This document shows, in pieces, positions 1 to 25,316 of a stretch of 37,571 nucleotides of DNA (positions are counted from its first letter, which is position 1; the number at the start of each line of letters is the position of its first letter). The notes beneath the pieces were generated by a model. It saw only the letters and a program-made list of their open reading frames with translations, was not told the origin of the DNA and did not search any database. The stretch spans positions 1 to 37,571 of the forward strand of contig CALVCT010000030.1 in NCBI GenBank assembly GCA_944326055.1, written 5' to 3'. The DNA is from an uncultured Erysipelotrichaceae bacterium. Its GTDB lineage: Bacteria; Bacillota_I; Bacilli_A; Erysipelotrichales; Erysipelotrichaceae. The position numbers and the translations under genes were made by a program.

Positions 1-124
1 ACAAGACGACGATAAAACGGTCATCATCCATCATATCGAGGCTATCTCTAATAAACAAAAGCTTATCTTCAGGATAGTATTTCTGATTAGTTGCCATATA
101 GGCATCGACTTTATTTCTTTCCAT
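1..124 (-). CDS. TM2-domain-type membrane protein, N-terminal fragment
   Basis: Partial gene: the frame opens at an ATG at 122-124 and runs off the left edge, giving 41 codons. The visible residues (MERNKVDAYMATNQKYY, then PEDKLLFIRDSLDMMDDD) resemble the conserved soluble head of bacterial TM2-domain proteins, which have a short N-terminal helical region followed by two membrane helices with an intervening GxxGxxRFY-type motif. The TM2 hairpin itself would lie outside the window, so the assignment rests on the head alone. An AAGGAG SD lies 6-12 nt upstream and a good promoter lies at 144-172. Function of these proteins is unknown. Confidence 0.6.
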   Translation of the reverse strand, partial: MERNKVDAYMATNQKYYPEDKLLFIRDSLDMMDDDRFIVVL

Positions 125-143
125 AAAATAACTCCTTTTATTA

Positions 144-172
144 ATTATGGAGTATAGCTAAAGCCTTGTCAA
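144..172 (-). promoter_or_regulatory. Sigma-A-type promoter for the TM2-type gene
   Basis: On the minus strand there is TTGACA (167-172), a 17-nt spacer and CATAAT (144-149). It sits about 20 nt upstream of the ATG at 124, with an SD in between. This is one of the best consensus matches in the window. Confidence 0.75.
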
Positions 173-180
173 TCAACTAA

Positions 181-223
181 GTCGACCAGACATGATCCAA
201 TAGCCTGCTCATCGATGGTCGAC
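181..223. repeat. Inverted repeat GTCGACCA/TGGTCGAC between two operons
   Basis: Perfect 8-bp arms at 181-188 and 216-223, separated by 27 nt. Each arm contains the palindrome GTCGAC. It lies immediately upstream of the TM2-type promoter (-35 at 167-172) and downstream of the DHHW gene. There is no T tract, so a simple intrinsic terminator is unlikely; an operator or RNA stem-loop is possible. The rest of 125-316 shows no gene. Confidence 0.4.
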
Positions 224-316
224 ATATCTAAGATCGATCGCTTTTTAATATCTTTATCGGTACCCTATAGTTTTTATGAATATTGATCACGATATCACTC
301 TTTTATACTTACTTTC

Positions 317-1375
317 TTATCTAAGAGCTCCGCTTTGATCAATGAATTCACTACCATAGATAAACAAAACTTTGGCTTTATCGTCTAAATCTAAACTTTC
401 GATCAAACTTGCATCAAAATAGCGAAGATCGATCACGTCGATCCTAGAATATGAATCGATGAGAAGTGGCAATAAAGAAGAAGCGAAAGAATCACGAAAG
501 ACGATGAGCCTCTGATCGATCTTAGCATCTTCGTTCTCTATCCTAAGATATGCACTTGGTCCGTCAAGATAGATATCGTAAAGATCTGGATGAGTGGTAG
601 CTTCTTTATCATAGACAGGCACTTCACTGTCTTTTTCAAGATCATAGACTCTGACACCGTTAAAGTCGCCTTCAAGATAATATAATATATCAGGATTTAC
701 ATCATAGAACGACTTAGAAAAAAGTGAACCATAGAAAGGATAGACCTCCCTTGCTTCAGTTGTGACAGGCACATAAATATCGCCGATAGCTTCAACGATA
801 TATCTAGCAACATCCTTTAGTTTATCTTGTCGCCAATGGATATCAGTATGATAGTAAGAATCAAGGGATAAGAGACCACTGATATCGATCAAAGGCATAT
901 CTAGACCATCTATGAGCAGTTGCCTAATATCATCAAACCTAAGATCTGAAGGATGATACAGTTCACTATAGTCATTCTTACGTGGTATACCGATAAAATA
1001 GACTTCACGATCAGAGAAATAGCTATCTTTAAGCTCATTAGTCTTTAAGATCAGATCACTCACCGACTCAGCATCAAACTTCAGTATATCGAAAAGATAG
1101 CCATCTTTCGAATAAACACCATCATTGTCTTTGAAATGAAAAAGATAACGATTGGTAAGATTCCGAAGCGTGATGAGTTCATCCCTAAAAAAGAGATGAT
1201 CACTAAGATAATCATCGAGATCTTCATAAAAGTCAGGATCAGCTAGATCGACTTTAGGAAAAGTATCTAGATACCTTCTTTCAAGATATGAGATCGTCCT
1301 ATTTGAAAAGACGGTCAAGACTGACATCGACAAAACGATAATGACTACAATTAACAAAGTTATCTTCTTATACAT
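317..1375 (-). CDS. DHHW/AlgJ-like surface polymer O-acylation partner protein
   Basis: 352-aa membrane-anchored protein with an N-terminal hydrophobic segment (about residues 5-23) and an extracytoplasmic SGNH-like domain. Diagnostic patches are the FRDELI segment (about 63-68), YYHTDIHW (174-181; the Asp-x-His core of AlgJ/AlgX/DHHW proteins) and a DSF motif near the C-terminus. The ATG at 1375 was chosen rather than an ATG 63 nt upstream, because it follows the MBOAT stop by one base (TGATATG junction) and puts the membrane segment at the N-terminus. Third gene of the DUF4358-MBOAT-DHHW operon. In AlgI/AlgJ/AlgX and DltB/DltD systems such partners help transfer acetyl or other acyl groups to an exported polymer; the substrate here is unknown. 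Confidence 0.75.
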   Translation of the reverse strand: MYKKITLLIVVIIVLSMSVLTVFSNRTISYLERRYLDTFPKVDLADPDFYEDLDDYLSDHLFFRDELITLRNLTNRYLFHFKDNDGVYSKDGYLFDILKFDAESVSDLILKTNELKDSYFSDREVYFIGIPRKNDYSELYHPSDLRFDDIRQLLIDGLDMPLIDISGLLSLDSYYHTDIHWRQDKLKDVARYIVEAIGDIYVPVTTEAREVYPFYGSLFSKSFYDVNPDILYYLEGDFNGVRVYDLEKDSEVPVYDKEATTHPDLYDIYLDGPSAYLRIENEDAKIDQRLIVFRDSFASSLLPLLIDSYSRIDVIDLRYFDASLIESLDLDDKAKVLFIYGSEFIDQSGALR

Positions 1376-5350: not shown

Positions 5351-5426
5351 TGGTGACTCGTACGGGATTCGAACCCGTGAATGTCGCCTTGAGAGGGCGA
5401 TGTGTTAACCGTTTCACCAACGAGCC
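5351..5426 (-). tRNA. tRNA-Glu, anticodon CTC
   Basis: 76-nt cloverleaf with a genomically encoded CCA (tgg at 5351-5353 on the plus strand). The acceptor stem GGCTCGT pairs with ACGAGTC with one G-T wobble, and the discriminator base is A. The anticodon stem is TCGCC/GGCGA around the loop CTCTCAA, giving CTC, which reads GAG. The T arm is ACGGG-TTCGAAT-CCCGT. Overall sequence follows bacterial tRNA-Glu. It lies directly downstream of rplT with only a hairpin between. Confidence 0.93.
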
Positions 5427-22045: not shown

Positions 22046-22166
22046 TTTCTCTAAAATCCTCCTTTTCAAGAACGAATCTTTCCAAAAAAAATGACCGGAA
22101 AATCCGGCCATCTAATGACTTATCTCAACTATCCGACGTTTTGATAGGTAAATTCGTTCTCATCAG
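22046..22166 (-). ncRNA. Unassigned structured leader RNA of the uracil permease gene
   Basis: About 120-nt leader. From the 5' end it has AGAACGAAT (22152-22160), a small hairpin CTATC/GATAG with a 9-nt loop, a strong terminator (22084-22111), then ATTCGTTCT (22069-22077), the perfect 9-nt complement of the first element, and finally the SD. So a 9-bp closing helix can enclose both hairpins and end 5 nt before the SD. I could not match it to the purine, preQ1 or PRPP riboswitches, and I see no PyrR anti-antiterminator consensus. Confidence 0.6.
22084..22111 (-). terminator. Attenuator terminator in the uracil permease leader
   Basis: ATGGCCGGA/TCCGGTCAT, 9-bp stem with one G-T pair and a 3-nt loop, followed by a run of 8 T on the minus strand. 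It lies between the promoter and the permease start, so it must be conditional. Confidence 0.85.
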
Positions 22167-22172
22167 TTCTTC

Positions 22173-22181
22173 ATATTACCA
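22173..22181 (-). promoter_or_regulatory. Extended -10 promoter of the uracil permease unit
   Basis: TGGTAATAT (TGnTAATAT) on the minus strand with no good -35; predicted start near 22166, six nt before the first arm of the leader helix. Confidence 0.5.
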
Positions 22182-22200
22182 TAACAAGCGCATAAATGAA

Positions 22201-22452
22201 AGATAAAGTTTTAGTTTTAGTTTTAATTGAAGATTTAAATATTTTTTGCGAAAGAATCACTAAGTATATCTTGGGTAGATTTCTATCCCCATCTACTACT
22301 ATAATTATTTTAATTACCTAACAACTAAGCAAGTGAAATATACTATTTTCTTCATATAAGTTGTCGAAAGTTAGAATATTTTTTATTTTAACCATGACAA
22401 AACCAATGCAACGAGCATTTTTTTTGATGATAAAGTCTTTGTGAGCGACTCT
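22201..22452. other. AT-rich gene-free spacer at the islet boundary
   Basis: No gene is supported. It holds three tandem copies of TTTTAG-like hexamers (about 22208-22225), A/T runs, and at 22392-22416 a segment whose minus strand reads CGTTGCATTGGTTTTGTCA, similar in style to the terminal inverted repeats of IS30-family elements. This may be the right end of the IS30 remnant; the matching left end was not found. Confidence 0.35.
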
Positions 22453-23056
22453 CTATTCTATTAGCCTCATTAATTCCTCAAGAAACTTTCGATTACTATT
22501 TGAGTAATCAAAAATCTTTCTTGGGTATTCATTGATCCATTCTTCTATGTGATAGATCTCATCATTTGTCCTGTCTGTCATTGAAGTTAGTTGATTTTGG
22601 AATATGTCTTCTAATCAGCTTATTAGCGTTTTCATTGCTGCCTCTTTCACTGGAAGAATAGGGATGGCAATAGTAGATCTTTAACTTCTCAACGAAACCA
22701 GAAAGCAGTAGCATACCATTATAATCCGCAAACTCTGATCCATTATCTACTGTTATACTTTTGAAAACCATTGAAAACATGCTTCCCCAAGTCTCGCGTA
22801 TTCTTTTCAACTCGATAACAACACTTTCGCTAGAGCAAGAACTCATTTTGCGTATGATCTCCATCCTAGTTTTTCTTTCAGTCAGAACTAAAAGGCAAGA
22901 TTTCTGCGTTTTTGTTCCTTTTACCGTATCCATCTCCCAATGCCCAAATTCATCTCTTTTCATTATATGAACTGGCCTTTGCTCAATACTTTCGCCAAGT
23001 AAACGCTTATGTCTCCGTTTACCAGTAGTCCTTACAGTTTTATATTCTCTTTTTCT
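22453..23056 (-). pseudogene. IS30-family transposase remnant, frameshifted and N-terminally truncated
   Basis: The IS30 DDE domain is recognisable: RRHKRLLGESIEQRP, then GHWEMDTVKG (first Asp), ITVDNGSEFAD (second Asp) and YYCHPYSSSERGSNENANKL (Glu), ending RRHIPKSTNFND. The frame then hits a stop at 22562. The true C-terminus continues in another frame from about 22581 (DEIYHIEEWINEYPRKIF, ending at 22453), so there is a frameshift. Upstream, the frame is closed by a TGA at 23057-23059 and the helix-turn-helix N-terminal half is missing. The element is dead. It marks the edge of a compositionally different islet. Confidence 0.88.
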
Positions 23057-23182
23057 TCAATAAAAAGAAACTTTGACTGCAACTTTGCAATCCAAGAATT
23101 ATTAGGATCACTATGAATTTTAGAATTACCTGAGATCACATCTAGATCCCACACATCATCATCTTAGGCGAGTGTATAAGAA

Positions 23183-23233
23183 AAGGAGGTATCAAAACCT
23201 ATGATTACATACCGGTTTTGAAACAACCTCCTT
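23183..23233 (-). terminator. Two-part hairpin, probable terminator of the secreted-protein operon
   Basis: Outer arms AAGGAGGT (23183-23190) / ACCTCCTT (23226-23233) and inner arms TCAAAACC (23192-23199) / GGTTTTGA (23214-23221), with a small asymmetric internal loop and 14-nt apical loop. On the minus strand it ends in TTTTCTTAT. It lies 74 nt after the last gene of the 24707-23307 operon. Confidence 0.55.
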
Positions 23234-23306
23234 AATAAATGTGATCAGCCTTGATATCACCAGTTAGTACTTCTAAATAAGCTTACGACTTCATTATCTA
23301 TAGTGT

Positions 23307-23612
23307 TTAATCGTATCCTTCACAATGGTCAAATTTGGTTACTGTGTCGTAGTTATTGTCGATTTTTTCGTAGCCACAGCGCGTATTCAAACAACTATAA
23401 ACATAAAACTTTTGCCTTATAGCATATATATCATCTCCTTTGCTATGATGGGCGCATGGTCTACGTTCATATACCGGATCCCCTAAAGTAGTAGTTATCT
23501 TCATAGCACCGCCACATTGTGAACAATAAGTGACTGGTACTCTTGCGGAAATCGATAATGTAGATAACAAAATTGTAATTATCGTTACTAAAACAACACT
23601 GGTTTTTTTCAT
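23307..23612 (-). CDS. Small secreted cysteine-rich (zinc-ribbon-like) protein
   Basis: 101-aa protein with a signal peptide (about residues 1-24; cleavage near SISA/RV). The mature part carries CSQCGG, a later RPCAHH and a C-x4-C pair in SCLNTRCGYEK, followed by DHCEGYD. The paired cysteines and histidines suggest a metal-binding or disulfide-bonded ribbon outside the cell. The ATG at 23612 with SD AGTAGG gives a proper signal peptide; an earlier ATG would add 14 non-signal residues. Third gene of the islet operon. Function unknown. Confidence 0.7.
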   Translation of the reverse strand: MKKTSVVLVTIITILLSTLSISARVPVTYCSQCGGAMKITTTLGDPVYERRPCAHHSKGDDIYAIRQKFYVYSCLNTRCGYEKIDNNYDTVTKFDHCEGYD

Positions 23613-23676
23613 AATACCTACTTTTACCAAAATATTGAATCTTAACACAGTCAATCGTTAACCGATTCTCCTACTT

Positions 23677-24570
23677 CTAATCCCAATGATACATTATTTC
23701 AAATTCATTATCTTGTGGATCTTTGAAGACGAGCCTTTTAAGCTGTGACTTTGCTCCTTCGCTTTCTTCTGGGAAATCAATCGGCGTTTCTGAGTAATGG
23801 TAATAGCCATCACCTTGGTACATCTCAAAGTCAAATTGTTCTATCTCAGCAAGGAATCTGTAGACATCATCATCGTTGTAAAAACGAACACTTTCTTCTG
23901 GGGTCTTGTATCTATCAACGATGATATCCTCATTTTTATACTCCCTTACGTTGAAATAGCATTTATCATGCAGATAACAATAGTCGCTGAAATAAGGCAT
24001 TTCATATTCGTCGAAAAGCTTTGTTAATTGAGTCGTCAAAGCGTCTTCTTGTGCGTCGTAGAGACATTCATATTCTCTGAATTCATCTTTTATTTGATAT
24101 CTCATTCCCAATCCTTCAACAACGCCCATGCGTGCAGCATTGATCGATTCAAAGACCTCATATCGATTTTCGCCAAAATAGATGTACATTATTACAGGAG
24201 TGAGATTATTGGGGTGATAGAAATCTAGACCAACATAATCAGAAAAGTACTCATTATTGTTGATTTGATATTCTACCCCTGCCAATGATTCGATAAAGTT
24301 TTTGGCTAGATCTTCATTATTAAATTTTAATCTTTGACTGCCGCCAAAGTATATGGTGACATCAGTTACTTTATCGAGATCGACCATGGAAAAATCGAAC
24401 GTTTCAGGGAAATTATATTCAACTTCCTCTTGGGCATCTGAATTTTCAGTTTTGATGACCTCCGTTGTGATCGAAGGCGTATTTGTTATGGTAACCTCGT
24501 TTACTGGAAGATCGCCGTCACAAGAACTTAGCAGTATCATGATAGATATGATAGACAGTAACTTTTTCAT
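23677..24570 (-). CDS. Lipoprotein of unknown function, islet operon
   Basis: 297-aa lipoprotein with lipobox LLSSC (Cys17), then a Thr/Glu-rich linker (about 20-55) and a domain of about 240 aa. Aromatic and acidic residues are frequent. Two similar-looking segments, each with a hydrophobic core and a predicted strand (VTDVTIYFGGSQRLKF and SQLKRLVFKDPQDNEF), hint at an internal repeat of a small sensor-like fold, but no family was recognised. Start codon overlaps the stop of the small secreted peptide gene (ATGA), so both are co-translated. Confidence 0.72.
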   Translation of the reverse strand: MKKLLSIISIMILLSSCDGDLPVNEVTITNTPSITTEVIKTENSDAQEEVEYNFPETFDFSMVDLDKVTDVTIYFGGSQRLKFNNEDLAKNFIESLAGVEYQINNNEYFSDYVGLDFYHPNNLTPVIMYIYFGENRYEVFESINAARMGVVEGLGMRYQIKDEFREYECLYDAQEDALTTQLTKLFDEYEMPYFSDYCYLHDKCYFNVREYKNEDIIVDRYKTPEESVRFYNDDDVYRFLAEIEQFDFEMYQGDGYYHYSETPIDFPEESEGAKSQLKRLVFKDPQDNEFEIMYHWD

Positions 24571-24707
24571 GATACTACAAATTCAGCTATTTTGGTTTCC
24601 ATATAGGTTGTAGCTTCACCGATATCCAGCGAGCTAGCACTAACTGTTGGTGACATAGTAAACAACATCATTAAAACAACTAGCAAAACACTAAGCAATC
24701 TCTTCAT
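24567..24707 (-). CDS. 46-aa secreted peptide precursor
   Basis: Short gene with a strong SD (AAAGGAGAAGATTATG). The product has a classical signal peptide (MKRLLSVLLVVLMMLF, polar end TMSPTVSA) with predicted cleavage after residue 24, leaving a 22-residue peptide starting SSLDIGEATTYMETK and ending AEFVVS. The stop overlaps the start of the lipoprotein gene (ATGA). It is first in an operon with its own promoter. It could be an exported signalling peptide, or an N-terminal remnant of a longer secreted protein. Confidence 0.65.
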   Translation of the reverse strand: MKRLLSVLLVVLMMLFTMSPTVSASSLDIGEATTYMETKIAEFVVS

Positions 24708-24782
24708 AATCTTCTCCTTTCTTTACTTAGCTTATGTTTTGTTGGATTTTATAGTTGGATGTAAATTGAAAACATAAAAACC

Positions 24783-24805
24783 GTAGATAGACCCAACTAG
24801 TCTAC
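24783..24805 (-). other. Hairpin with T-rich tail in the islet operon leader
   Basis: The roughly 160-nt leader from about 24867 to 24708 contains a stem GTAGA/TCTAC or, alternatively, TAGAC/GTCTA, followed by GGTTTTTATGTTTT. These alternative pairings plus a small AACTT/AAGTT hairpin upstream suggest a weak attenuator. No riboswitch class was recognised. Confidence 0.4.
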
Positions 24806-24873
24806 AATGCCGTTTCCGTACCTATGAGGATTGTAACTTAACATAAGTTTCTTGCCCCCTCTTTCTTAACCTC

Positions 24874-24902
24874 ATTATAGTTTAAAATGTAAGCCTTTAC
24901 AA
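24874..24902 (-). promoter_or_regulatory. Promoter of the islet operon
   Basis: Minus-strand TTGTAA (24897-24902), 17-nt spacer, perfect TATAAT (24874-24879). Strong match; it drives the secreted peptide, lipoprotein and cysteine-rich protein genes. Confidence 0.75.
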
Positions 24903-24960
24903 TACAAACTTACAGAAAATCGCCATTTTAGTTTTAAGTTTTGATGAAGGTCTTGTAAAA

Positions 24961-25028
24961 GGATCAGCTTGATAAGCTCCTTTGAAACATCCCATCGGAA
25001 ACATCTTTGCTTATCAAAGTTCTGATCC
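24961..25028. repeat. Large imperfect stem-loop downstream of a small membrane gene
   Basis: Arms GGATCAG-TTGATAAGC (24961-24977) and GCTTATCAA-CTGATCC (25009-25028): 16 paired bases interrupted by a 1/4-nt internal loop. The apical loop holds a direct repeat of GAAACATC. On the minus strand it is followed by TTTTAC. It could be a terminator for the gene at 25039-25230 or the relic of a small repeat element. Confidence 0.5.
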
Positions 25029-25038
25029 AAGATAGATT

Positions 25039-25230
25039 TTACATGTATCTCAAGATCTGTTTTACTTCACGAATAATAGGAACTAGATTATATATGCCGA
25101 TAATAAAGAAAACATCAACCATGCCAAAAGATCTATTTGGATCATAAAAACTTAGACTATAAAATACATTTGACATGATCATTATTATAAGATAGCATAA
25201 CCTAAATATGACTCTATACCCTATATTCAT
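25039..25230 (-). CDS. Small two-helix membrane protein, hypothetical
   Basis: 63-aa hydrophobic protein with two predicted membrane segments (about residues 5-27 and 36-53) and a short polar loop DPNRSFG. SD candidate GGGGA lies 4 nt before the ATG. It is followed by the large stem-loop at 24961-25028. No family was recognised and no clear promoter was found; it could be a genuine small gene or a chance frame. Confidence 0.42.
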   Translation of the reverse strand: MNIGYRVIFRLCYLIIMIMSNVFYSLSFYDPNRSFGMVDVFFIIGIYNLVPIIREVKQILRYM

Positions 25231-25316
25231 ACGATCCCCATATTTAGATATCGTTTAGCTCTGCTATACAGGTCAGACTCAAATACGATCGATGATTTTA
25301 ATAGCGATATCTAAGA

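Follow-up and report, generated by a model that had tools for sequence, protein, structure and literature searches.

As a rule, a known leader peptide controls a single operon. The ErmC leader and TnaC, which respond to drugs or metabolites (PMC8429421, PMC8298421), combine a very short upstream ORF with conserved residues and hairpins near the ORF end, and the tiny ORFs with the motif RYKNG described here share these features; the RYKNG motif, however, precedes many unrelated exported-protein operons. Ketolides stall ribosomes at Arg/Lys-X-Arg/Lys (PMC8298421), which the RYK or RYR of RYKNG leaders would fit, a likeness that serves as a lead only, and the window copy (RYG) breaks this motif. 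RY[KR] is found in 43 of 45 leader ORFs, but the window has RYG and the cargo examined downstream includes no resistance methylase, so that the leaders do not group with macrolide- or ketolide-inducible ones; no tryptophanase was seen downstream either. SecM, MifM, VemP, ApcA and ApdA monitor Sec/YidC (PMC7897499, PMC10987492, PMC10951233), and in peptides of this kind an export or membrane signal is combined with a spacer longer than 30 residues, and the genes that follow are secA, secDF or yidC (PMC10987492). RYKNG ORFs resemble them in having a conserved short C-terminal motif 5' of export-linked genes, but are mostly 9-30 residues long without a localization signal, and fall outside this group. 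They also differ from attenuators governed by amino-acid supply (trp and his type), having no codon runs and a cargo of exported orphans. The conserved short ORF directly 5' of genes that marks leader-peptide attenuators does appear to be present, judging from coding conservation. A search of a literature collection found no RYKNG peptide.

The window (the whole stretch of 37,571 nucleotides that was analysed, from an uncultured Erysipelotrichaceae bacterium) contains such a leader ORF within the following features.

24874 to 24902, minus strand: promoter TTGTAA-17-TATAAT, retained in most copies in the same genome.
24860 to 24851, minus strand: purine-rich ribosome-binding site of the leader ORF.
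24797 to 24844, minus strand: leader ORF of 15 codons, MLSYNPHRYGNGIVD and stop; ten copies, with differences mostly synonymous in the leader-ORF frame only.
24791 to 24799, minus strand: 5' arm TAGTTGGGT of a long-range RNA helix, containing the leader stop codon; compensatory changes.
24752 to 24760, minus strand: 3' arm ATCCAACTA of the same helix; compensatory changes.
24567 to 24707, minus strand: 46-aa ORF, consisting of the signal peptide of the shared module and a unique 22-residue tail.
23677 to 24570, minus strand: orphan lipoprotein of 297 aa, overlapping the 46-aa ORF at ATGA.
23307 to 23612, minus strand: exported Cys-rich protein of 101 aa.
23183 to 23233, minus strand: terminator-like hairpin and T-run (-21 kcal/mol) at the operon end.
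22112 to 25316, no strand: inserted region, between a xanthine/uracil-type permease gene and a CNNM/HlyC gene.
22562 to 22963, minus strand: rve-type transposase fragment adjoining the operon (PF00665, 6.9e-8).

The original prediction that exported proteins form an operon here, along with an undescribed element, was correct, and its promoter is indeed present at 24902-24874 and retained in other leader copies; by consensus alone, promoters are found at chance level (11 against 10.1 expected). Overlooked within the leader were a conserved 15-codon ORF (ATG TTA AGT TAC AAT CCT CAT AGG TAC GGA AAC GGC ATT GTA GAC TAG) and its multi-copy nature. The locus belongs to an expression module present in several copies, and from the evidence, which consists of sequences throughout, mostly draft assemblies, we regard it as just probable that this module is a leader-peptide attenuator by which operons for exported proteins are controlled; RYKNG tiny genes ahead of exported-protein genes look like an undescribed translational switch. 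In the Rfam search the leader had no match at gathering score, the only matches in the window being a tRNA (5354-5426) and a chance-level CRISPR-DR2; the idea of a CRISPR repeat was dropped, the copies being dispersed leaders. No Pfam or NCBIfam family exceeded its cut-off for any of the three operon proteins.

Nine further promoter-leader copies (about ten in total) were found by searching the genome (1.38 Mb, 81 contigs) with positions 24708-25000. In the aligned copies, conservation runs from just 5' of the -35 element to the first gene, and in some into the signal peptide. The genes behind the leader differ between copies and are mostly exported orphan proteins: a 35-aa signal-peptide ORF and a 101-aa lipoprotein (C56), exported proteins of 159, 225 and 234 aa (C31, C44 and C19b), a Cys-rich protein with a MacB-like ABC transporter (C9), a membrane protein with an ABC protein (C46), a lipoprotein (C19a) and an ABC system (C33). 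Almost none of the cargo matched in a Pfam search, the exceptions being ABC transporters and a C39-like peptidase (PF13529, 4e-9) that sits behind a leader of genome G001.

Ten copies chosen by DNA similarity, not by peptide, differ pairwise across codons 2-12 by 151 synonymous and 75 non-synonymous changes in the leader-ORF frame, against 31 and 183 or 19 and 176 in the other two frames, and codons are exchanged with the residue kept (AAC/AAT, CCC/CCT, AGG/CGA, TAT/TAC). Most genomes of the genus have related tiny RY[K/R/G]NG ORFs, and so does one other genus of the Erysipelotrichaceae. A strict pattern had 34 matches against none for its reverse in 316 genomes of the order; of these, 32 are tiny ORFs belonging to two genera within a single family, and the strict matches L104 and L111 (inside a gene, beside a tRNA) were rejected as chance. 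Across 394 genomes of the class, matches lie in the same two genera only, and viral contigs had no match to the strict pattern. The pattern used for the initial contig scan (His at position 7) was too narrow, matching the G005 assembly only. Within the genus, a relaxed pattern brought up leaders of shorter length, e.g. MKARYKNGDVEG and MTARYKNGD, also before exported proteins; further leader peptides are MLSYNPHRYKNGIIG and MKARYKNGD. Because the counts of the relaxed pattern are uninformative (54 matches in total, not above the 66 of the reversed control), short leaders of the MKA/MTA type are recognized by ribosome-binding site, position and shared cargo.

RYxNG is invariant in all 45 distinct ORFs collected, a conservation inflated by selection of the set by motif. 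In these 45 ORFs the third motif position is K, R or G (38, 5 and 2), the residue after G is I, D, E, V or L, exactly 7 or 3 residues precede R in 41, and the tail beyond RYxNG ranges from 1 to 23 residues. The window copy reads RYGNG, as does only its close copy C56 among the leaders; because Gly replaces the Lys/Arg of nearly all others, the window leader may be altered and impaired. At one locus (L175, G000:C42, approximately 1-1013, minus strand), the leader motif and a lipoprotein form one continuous reading frame (MLNCGPSRYKNGILPWQKN...SITGC). At two contig ends of G003 (L088 and L091) the leaders are identical (MFVYNPHRYKNGETLSTG) and have a perfect GC-rich hairpin; the position of the L088 leader ahead of metG (methionyl-tRNA synthetase) is probably due to a contig-end repeat and was excluded as a functional link.

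The next ORF has an export-type signal for 28 of 36 leaders, compared with 9 of 37 window genes (Fisher p 6e-6), the signal being called by a simple hydrophobicity rule and the baseline being window genes only; cargo starts mostly 21-210 nt 3' of the leader ORF. The C11 leader (MFKLNPSRYKNGVF) and the G008 leader (MKARYKNGDVDN) precede homologous cargo (2e-46). Leaders alike in RYKNG alone precede homologous cargo in different species (C11 and L153; L142 and L169) and the Cys-rich family cargo of C9, L089, L144 and L161; a further homologous pair (L160 and L173) has leaders alike in the short form. The latter two (G001:C58 and G005:C59) are secreted C39-like peptidases (PF13529) behind MTARYKNGD and MTARYKNGDTILSN. 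At L044, L045, L089, L144 and L161, the gene behind a RYKNG leader encodes an exported (often Cys-rich) or a membrane protein and is accompanied by MacB-like fused ABC transporters, an arrangement that recalls bacteriocin/immunity operons. Small exported Cys/His-rich ORFs of the YCEVCNHHHVNGICTHEKCDC type (L051, 407-586; L020, 1083-1280) occur just 5' of the C11 leader and beside a relative of the window Cys-rich protein in G001.

Since the order of residues is kept while codons, tail and RNA context are free, it would be the nascent peptide that acts, and not amino-acid supply or RNA sequence. It is unlikely, for this reason, that the leader ORF merely boosts expression by mRNA protection, ribosome loading or re-initiation without conditional stalling: strong ribosome-binding sites and the spacing of the cargo would suit such a role, which nevertheless leaves the conserved order R-Y-K-N-G with free codons unexplained.

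The long structured leader originally proposed is not borne out by folding energy, which is no better than that of shuffled sequence (z = +1.1), although covariation supports one helix within it. In the window's subgroup, TAGTTGG, starting at the leader stop codon, pairs with CCAACTA approximately 35 nt downstream, and pairing is kept in the variants TAGCCA/TGGCTA (C33), GTTGAAA/TTTCAAC (C11), GTTGGAACTA/TAGTTTCAAC (G008) and GTTGA/TCAAC (C41, C19b and G004). An alignment of nine sequences, built without fitting to this helix, has 96% of its cells paired and three pairs with two-sided changes; the covariation score was equalled by 1 of 500 shuffles, and slid controls pair at 27-40%. A terminator-like hairpin lies behind the leader ORF in 12 of 35 cases (4.8 expected), directly 3' of the ORF in G005e, G005f, G007, C24 and L112. 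The subgroups differ in RNA architecture: the stop-codon helix is confined to the window's subgroup, others have a clear terminator, and neither is present in several second-genus leaders.

The attenuator module would consist, in order, of a promoter, a tiny ORF with RY[KR]NG near the C-terminus, a short conditional RNA, a signal peptide and exchangeable cargo. In the simplest case, the nascent RYKNG peptide would, under some condition, slow or stall the ribosome, which would mask either TAGTTGG at the stop codon or, just downstream, the 5' arm of the terminator-like hairpin; a ribosome at the leader stop codon would prevent the stop-codon helix, and the altered RNA fold would change expression of the exported protein. 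The cargo (orphan secreted proteins, lipoproteins, small membrane proteins and MacB-like ABC transporters) probably serves cell-surface interaction or competition, which is the weakest step of this explanation. More tentatively, RYKNG leaders could be a new class of very short arrest peptides, by which one common small molecule or translational stress would be sensed in the ribosome tunnel and, by way of a single switch, a translation-gated regulon of unrelated exported proteins and transporters, for surface functions or competition, turned on in gut Erysipelotrichaceae; we consider this possible, if doubtful.

A palindrome, TGTAA-N4-TTACA (TGTAA-AGGC-TTACA), overlaps the -35 element in most copies of the same genome, and the window promoter has a longer inverted repeat (TGTAAG..CTTACA, 24914-24888). 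Both palindrome halves are changed in the G004 promoter (TGAAA-AGGC-TTTCA), and the promoter of G005 C12 (TGTAAACGATTCCA) resembles a CcpA cre site. It is possible, from these sequences, that a common regulator acts at the promoter palindrome. The RYKNG peptide might act in trans, as a short pheromone, intracellular or exported, for a common regulator with TGTAA-N4-TTACA as its binding site; there would be one copy per operon. The conserved peptide sequence and the shared palindrome are in keeping with this, but the peptide has no signal sequence, its tail ranges from 1 to 23 residues, second-genus promoters lack the palindrome, and a trans signal would need no dozens of cis copies ahead of different operons, which makes action in trans quite improbable.

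The permease and CNNM genes that flank the inserted region are adjacent in three congeners (G003, G004 and G007), and the window has 3.2 kb extra between them. Within it, a 63-aa ORF (25039-25230, minus strand) with a weak match to DUF6056 (E 0.0013, below cut-off) is probably a gene fragment. This insertion, with the transposase fragment alongside, and copies C30 and C56, which are 94% identical up to the start of the signal peptide and unrelated beyond, would agree with a leader that is chiefly a recombination or gene-conversion module, through which cargo is swapped while promoter and signal peptide stay the same and the ORF is a passenger. That account leaves unexplained both the mostly synonymous drift and the presence of RYKNG leaders across genera in unrelated DNA, and there is little chance that it suffices; it is compatible with the attenuator explanation, and both can be true together.

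The individual genes of the operon were in large part as predicted: the 46-aa ORF with its signal peptide (24707-24567), the ATGA that joins it to the 297-aa ORF (24570-23677), the lipoprotein nature of the latter (its N-terminus ends LLSSC; Pfam LPAM_1 at 16.1 bits, cut-off 20), and the exported 101-aa protein (23612-23307) with C30xxC33 and C74x4C79. What gave way was the claim that the 46-aa ORF is a peptide precursor, since in the same genome this promoter, leader and signal peptide also stand before longer exported proteins (159, 225, 234 and 196 aa). The 46-aa ORF is similar to longer proteins over the signal peptide only, largely as expected of a truncated start. At C56, a parallel ORF of 35 aa likewise extends into the start of a lipoprotein, and the start codon is gone from the G004 copy. 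The 46-aa ORF is probably a cargo gene in truncated form, maintained to couple its translation to that of the lipoprotein gene, and the supposed peptide gene probably merely a borrowed secretion signal. That the operon yields an exported 22-residue peptide, translated along with the lipoprotein and serving signalling, adhesion or competition, is very improbable despite a good signal peptide and the ATGA coupling, because the tail has no relatives, the signal peptide is common to longer cargo, and C56 has a parallel remnant and G004 a start-less copy.

Co-occurrence of the three genes, which had also been proposed for a search, was not found elsewhere, the Cys-rich protein alone having relatives. 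The lipoprotein has none in 60 related genomes (a single match, E=0.009, crosses four stop codons), a scan of genome contigs, or plasmids, and its AlphaFold2 model is unusable (pLDDT 33). The Cys-rich protein belongs to a family of at least five with invariant C..CG..CxH..G.D..C..C..C; its model is good (pLDDT 81), yet has no significant fold match, and the sequence search gave chance-like zinc-finger matches only. Its relatives at C9, L089, L144 and L161 have the gene order of lactococcin 972-type operons (TIGR01653, TIGR03608), in which a MacB-like ABC transporter comes after a small exported protein, but the Cys-rich protein scores 12 bits against the TIGR01653 cut-off of 32.1, through its signal peptide only, and the ABC protein falls under its own cut-off. 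Because of the insertion, the transposase fragment and the 46-aa remnant, the three genes were probably brought together locally behind the shared module.

The RYKNG leader provides a sequence tag for locating orphan secreted proteins. If the attenuator explanation is true, one motif before dozens of unrelated exported-protein operons would constitute a shared translational switch, which would account for the joint control of orphan secreted proteins in these gut bacteria.
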